Of a stretch of DNA of 64,000 nucleotides, positions 56,141 to 56,419 are shown piece by piece. Below the pieces are notes generated by a model. The model did no database searches. It had not been told where the DNA came from and saw only the letters and a list, made by a program, of their open reading frames with translations. The DNA comes from Halalkaliarchaeum sp. AArc-CO (GTDB taxonomy: Archaea > Halobacteriota > Halobacteria > Halobacteriales > Haloferacaceae): positions 1,674,001-1,738,000 of the forward strand of contig NZ_CP087723.1 in NCBI RefSeq assembly GCF_024972735.1, written 5' to 3'. The position numbers were made by a program, and so were the translations under genes. Position 1 is the first letter of the stretch. Every line of letters begins with the position of its first letter.

Positions 56141-56419
56141 ATGGAATGGAAACTGTTCGCCGACCTCGCGGAGGTCGCCGGCGAGGACACCGTCGAGATC
56201 GACGCCGCAATCGACACCGTAGACGACGCGCTCGCGGCGCTGCTCGAACGGCATCCCGGACTCGAGGAGCGGATACTCGACGAGGACGGCGAATTGCTGG
56301 ATCACATCAACGTCCTATGCAACGGCGAGTCCGTCCGGAACGGCGACGGGATGGACACACAACTCGAAGACGGCGACGAACTCGCGCTGTTTCCCCCGGT
56401 AAGCGGCGGCGAACAGTGA
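56141..56419 (+). CDS. samp1: Ubiquitin-like small archaeal modifier (SAMP1/MoaD family) with residues after Gly-Gly
   Basis: The 92-residue beta-grasp protein starts MEWKLFADLAEVAG, the SAMP1 opening, and contains LDHINVLCNGESV and DELALFPPVSGG. In Haloferax SAMP1 the last two residues are Gly-Gly, which are adenylylated by UbaA and joined to lysines or used for sulfur transfer. Here the stop follows two more residues, ending SGGEQ. Activation would need removal of Glu-Gln, as with eukaryotic ubiquitin precursors. It lies 23 bases after the RCK_C gene with its own weak AT patch. Confidence 0.88.
   Translation: MEWKLFADLAEVAGEDTVEIDAAIDTVDDALAALLERHPGLEERILDEDGELLDHINVLCNGESVRNGDGMDTQLEDGDELALFPPVSGGEQ

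Follow-up and report, generated by a model that had tools for sequence, protein, structure and literature searches.

How could a SAMP1 whose reading frame runs two residues past its Gly-Gly motif give rise to an active sulfur carrier and protein modifier? The question is raised by a gene in the window, i.e. the whole 64,000-nucleotide stretch of Halalkaliarchaeum sp. AArc-CO analysed here, which belongs to a 99.9% complete genome in two contigs (G000, SAMP1 at C2:1730141). The features concerned are the following:

56141..56419, + strand: samp1, encoding a 92-aa ubiquitin-like, MoaD-family sulfur carrier as a capped precursor (open reading frame, NF041918, ThiS PF02597, PDB SAMP1 matches, dN/dS)
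56399..56410, + strand: codons of the VSGG motif, with Gly90 as the expected mature C-terminus (the alignment to H. volcanii SAMP1 stops at Gly90)
56411..56416, + strand: cap codons, Glu-Gln after Gly-Gly (Glu-Arg in the congener; sequence and congener comparison)
56417..56419, + strand: stop codon TGA (sequence)

A Gly-Gly motif followed by two residues

The translation of the ORF at 56141-56419 (+ strand; MEWKLFADLAEV...DELALFPPVSGGEQ*) matched the NCBIfam SAMP1 model NF041918 over model positions 1-91 of 91 with 126.6 bits (cut-off 60), as well as ThiS (PF02597), and its top PDB matches, at E values of about 1e-26, were the H. volcanii SAMP1 entries 2l83, 3po0 and 4hro, the alignment running from residue 1 as far as Gly90. 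The conserved Gly-Gly that closes the beta-grasp domain is present in this protein and lies at the end of the alignment with H. volcanii SAMP1. At the end of the gene, GGC (56408-56410, second Gly) is followed by GAA (56411-56413), CAG (56414-56416) and TGA (56417-56419), so that VSGG-EQ-stop is read directly from the DNA, bearing out the sequence-only reading that the protein ends SGGEQ and not SGG. The primary translation product is thus without a free Gly-Gly, an end that the NF041918 model does not demand, and since Glu-Gln comes after the motif, such an end is possible only once the protein has been processed. Upstream, samp1 is neighboured by genes for two proteins with TrkA-C domains and, downstream, by genes for a DUF5518 protein and a convergent CoaBC.

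The SAMP1 of the one other genome of the genus compared (86% amino acid identity) ends VSGG-ER-stop at the same place. A sequencing or assembly error hiding a stop directly after Gly-Gly, which had been named as a possible refutation and which would yield the present letters if a hypothetical GGC-TGA-ACA-GTG-A lost one base of its TGA, is for all practical purposes ruled out, since this independent genome shows the identical frame and cap length with different bases. Between the two genomes, change amounts to 0.33 per synonymous site but to 0.083 per non-synonymous site, giving a dN/dS of about 0.2 that describes the whole gene, within flanking DNA that is also similar in both genomes, and that says nothing on selection of the cap residues themselves. 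The gene is therefore maintained, and this comparison of coding sequences indicates that capped samp1 is under purifying selection, with VSGG intact.

Distribution of caps and of JAMM1 in haloarchaea

Reading SAMP1 ends across the window's family (169-171 species) revealed 1 to 11 residues after Gly-Gly in about 39% of the typed genomes; 98 family genomes match a pattern of Gly-Gly immediately followed by TRR, which in one of them (G157) is TGG and no stop. The window's entire genus (two genomes) is capped, with EQ and ER, as are nearly all members of g17 (R, A, RQ, MR, TQ, RA, RGATE, TDRAR, RVAE) and most of g21, the genus holding the Halorubrum loci (SVGR, AVGR, SAGR and similar), with fewer cases in g5, g12, g16, g19, g22, g23 and g26; by genus, cap frequencies reach 2/2 in g1, 10/11 in g17 and 33/48 in g21. 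Named examples include Halorubrum coriense (LADR), Halorubrum lipolyticum (AVGR), Halopenitus malekzadehii (S) and Halalkalicoccus paucihalophilus (SAPR), and other families of the same order also show SAMP1 caps. Length and sequence range widely (EQ, ER, R, A, S, RQ, TQ, SVGR, SVERR, ARPDTDA). This survey of relatives, a check of homologues that the sequence-only reading had advised, rules out a one-genome peculiarity: the extension noted in the window is real, but it is common among relatives rather than particular to this gene. As the caps are scattered over genera and families, they were probably gained independently in many lineages.

A palindrome around the samp1 stop (CCGATAGATCGG) is common to many Halorubrum (L114, L139, L141 and others) and gives the last cap codons, one arm of the palindrome being those codons (GACCGATAGATCGGTC-like).

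The candidate protease is encoded in the same genome:

G000, contig C2, 516934-517362, - strand: JAMM1, haloarchaeal desampylase (NF041370, 154.9 bits, cut-off 130)

Its JAMM motif is intact (HSHPRGPPVPSETD, the HxHx7Sx2D signature), and it lies about 1.2 Mb from samp1, the carrier and protease genes not being clustered. The genome also holds one E1-like ThiF-family protein (presumed UbaA), one MoaE and, like most of the genomes, a second and more distant JAMM domain protein. By predicted function, all enzymes needed to remove the cap and to use SAMP1 are therein encoded.

If the cap is taken off by JAMM1, SAMP1 in its capped form should be unable to work without JAMM1, and the two states should not coincide. 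JAMM1 presence was determined by protein search in 392 genomes of the order, 280 with and 112 without, absence being called by an automated six-frame search at E <= 0.001 with a PF14464 cross-check in the window's own family only. The genomes in which JAMM1 was not found include all sampled members of several genera and come from g46, g32, g57, g62, g70, g89 and others; SAMP1 is kept in them wherever it was typed.

In the test set of 360 genomes at least 85% complete, 86 of the 272 genomes with JAMM1 are capped and 186 have a direct stop, whereas all 88 genomes without JAMM1 have a direct stop and none is capped (Fisher p = 8e-13). Because species are related, genus-by-state units were also counted, and caps are contained in 24/70 units with JAMM1 versus 0/22 without (p = 6e-4). 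Kinship was handled without a tree, by these genus units and by a permutation within families, in which 4.7 capped units without JAMM1 were expected when the JAMM1 state was shuffled among genera, against 0 observed (p = 0.0009). In the three genera that are mixed for JAMM1 (g23, g68 and g92), the JAMM1-less members all have a direct stop and the capped members all have JAMM1. The sole contrary genome, G077, bears the cap RVAE without a strong JAMM match and is 79% complete. Since caps are found almost only in genomes encoding JAMM1, the cap probably represents a genuine tail of the precursor rather than an error, although the co-occurrence could instead reflect an unmeasured trait travelling with JAMM1. 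Together with the JAMM1 gene of the window's genome, these counts favour the earlier proposal that a haloarchaeal JAMM protease could trim SAMP1.

Probable maturation by JAMM1 and the origin of the cap

Maturation of a capped precursor by JAMM1, as for QbsE/QbsD in bacteria (QbsE being the carrier that belongs to QbsD), best explains the SAMP1 cap, with a probability of about 0.8 in our estimation, given the joint distribution of caps and JAMM1 and the published HvJAMM1 cut exactly after Gly-Gly. SAMP1 would be translated as the capped precursor VSGG-EQ, JAMM1 would cut behind the second Gly and release EQ, and the freed Gly90 would be adenylated by the E1-like UbaA, then either serve, as a thiocarboxylate, in molybdopterin synthase together with MoaE or be conjugated to proteins; UbaA presumably cannot use uncut SAMP1. 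The claim that trimming is needed to expose Gly-Gly is thus supported by the enzymes present and by the co-occurrence of cap and JAMM1, while the cut of the window's own precursor by JAMM1 is one that we infer. HvJAMM1 cleaves a linear SAMP1-MoaE fusion exactly after the terminal Gly, as established by mass spectrometry and also in cells, the residues after Gly in the published cuts being those of MoaE and not Glu-Gln; SAMP1 freed from this fusion restores MPT synthase and DMSO respiration only with jamm1, and thiocarboxylation of SAMP1 requires its C-terminal Gly (PMC4443979).

The SAMP1 of H. volcanii is an orthologous ubiquitin-like sulfur carrier with VSGG, but its stop directly follows Gly-Gly, whereas the window protein has two residues more. 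Tails beyond Gly-Gly also characterize the precursors of eukaryotic ubiquitin and SUMO, in which they are removed before E1 activation, mostly by cysteine proteases, i.e. by different enzymes. Similar arrangements are seen in the bacterial QbsE/QbsD and PtmS2/PtmS1 systems, in which MoaD/ThiS-like carriers with 1-2 residues past Gly-Gly (e.g. the cap MV of PtmS2) are paired with JAMM proteases, the exposure of Gly-Gly, as proposed here for the window's genome, being demonstrated for QbsD in thioquinolobactin synthesis (PMC6006322). These systems serve natural-product pathways, whereas the SAMP1 of the window is a housekeeping archaeal modifier; in the ptm, tqb and pdt systems, carrier and protease are usually clustered, a trait that is not strictly defining, in contrast to the 1.2 Mb separating the window pair. 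In an archaeal lineage other than haloarchaea, the ubiquitin-like precursors of Caldiarchaeum (C. subterraneum) are likewise cut by JAMM proteases, CsJAMM acting on its own SAMP precursors, while in the CsUb-pre/CsRpn11 system the cut of CsUb-pre after Gly-Gly has been demonstrated (PMC6043591). JAMM-matured capped ubiquitin-like carriers are hence an already known kind; neither a capped SAMP1 from haloarchaea nor a restriction of such caps to JAMM1 genomes was found in the literature searched, which covered few subscription journals.

Why the cap exists is a separate matter, and here we lean towards a cap without a role of its own, one that arose neutrally, through drift of the stop codon or through features of the DNA where the gene ends, and that is tolerated because JAMM1 trims it, an explanation that is compatible with JAMM1 maturation. 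Caps differ greatly in both sequence and length, those of Halalkalicoccus-like genomes apparently extend into a convergent neighbour, and the palindrome around the stop codon in many Halorubrum, which takes in the final codons, can fold into a 7-bp hairpin. This hairpin is however no stronger than in shuffled sequence (z -0.53), and caps are kept in most or all members of g1, g17 and g21, as a neutral by-product would not lead one to expect. A terminator was rejected as the reason for cap conservation, as the Halorubrum palindrome folds no better than shuffles and the samp1 end in the window has no hairpin beyond chance (z 0.75, versus shuffles). The caps differ too much in sequence to share a signal. 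Most of the capping would be accounted for by stop-codon drift that genomes with JAMM1 can tolerate, and a regulatory role of the cap is possible.

Removal of the cap by an enzyme other than JAMM1, whether JAMM2, a carboxypeptidase or another peptidase, appears unlikely. Only two residues have to be removed, every cell has general peptidases, and a second, more distant JAMM domain protein occurs in the window's genome as in most others; but dependence on JAMM1 is not expected from a general peptidase, and the genera of the same family with a weaker JAMM match only (g11, g13, three of four genomes in g23, and g7) never have caps. Still less credible is that the cap is retained, with SAMP1 either being used uncut or having no activity while a paralogue whose Gly-Gly is free takes its place. 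The genome does encode three more MoaD-like proteins, one of which (47% identical) ends directly in VAGG, but the purifying selection on capped samp1 with its intact VSGG and the confinement of caps to JAMM1 genomes are not expected from loss of function, and in H. volcanii SAMP3 is no substitute for SAMP1 in DMSO respiration (PMC4443979).

SAMP2, further MoaD-like proteins and implications

A second SAMP of the genome is also capped:

G000, contig C2, 389938-390135, - strand: SAMP2 (L190), ending RLIKGG-VSRVNRDGDRRR-stop

The congener SAMP2 (L195) is likewise capped (KGG-NGNVGFGDDCRA), and SAMP2 was matched in 29 of 30 genomes, with residues beyond Gly-Gly in 20 of these 29; as all 30 genomes had been picked for a capped SAMP1 and are a non-random sample, these SAMP2 caps constitute a lead and no test. 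In seven g17 genomes (L178, L180, L186, L196, L198, L199 and L200), SAMP2 continues in frame and without a stop, as a linear fusion of natural origin, into seemingly the same GNAT acetyltransferase-like protein, the GNAT domain being confirmed by Pfam in L178; a GNAT gene adjoining an arCOG00535 ubiquitin-like gene in Halobacteria was noted in 2010 (PMC2948915). In three others (two of g16 and one of g44; L173, L179 and L182), it runs in frame into an AhpC/TSA peroxiredoxin-like domain, with Pfam matches in L173 and L179.

Further MoaD-like proteins were observed. In the congener, L007 (G001, C1:2922549-2922821, - strand; Pfam ThiS and DJ-1_PfpI) has a DJ-1/PfpI domain in the same frame as a MoaD-like domain that ends VYGG. 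In the window's genome, L004 (C2:2414908-2415168) ends VGGG-HTPPGTGFDQ, its tail behind the glycines being longer, and L003 (C2:1664377-1664646) ends VGGGG and lies just upstream of an apparent aldehyde ferredoxin oxidoreductase gene.

The known activity of HvJAMM1 is to take SAMPs off their targets, and since Gly-Gly is already free at the end of H. volcanii SAMP1, no maturation is needed there. It is conceivable, though we put this forward only tentatively and at somewhat less than even odds, that in a large part of haloarchaea SAMPs are obligate precursors, as short SAMP1 and SAMP2 caps or as the fusions of SAMP2 with acetyltransferase and peroxiredoxin-like domains, comparable to the ubiquitin that occurs fused to ribosomal proteins, and that JAMM1 would be a maturation protease first, setting the supply of active SAMP, and a deconjugating enzyme second. 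The distribution predicts that JAMM1 would be needed in many haloarchaea to make any active SAMP1, and suggests that archaeal SAMP systems, like those of ubiquitin and SUMO, took on precursor processing, repeatedly, by re-using the deconjugating enzyme.
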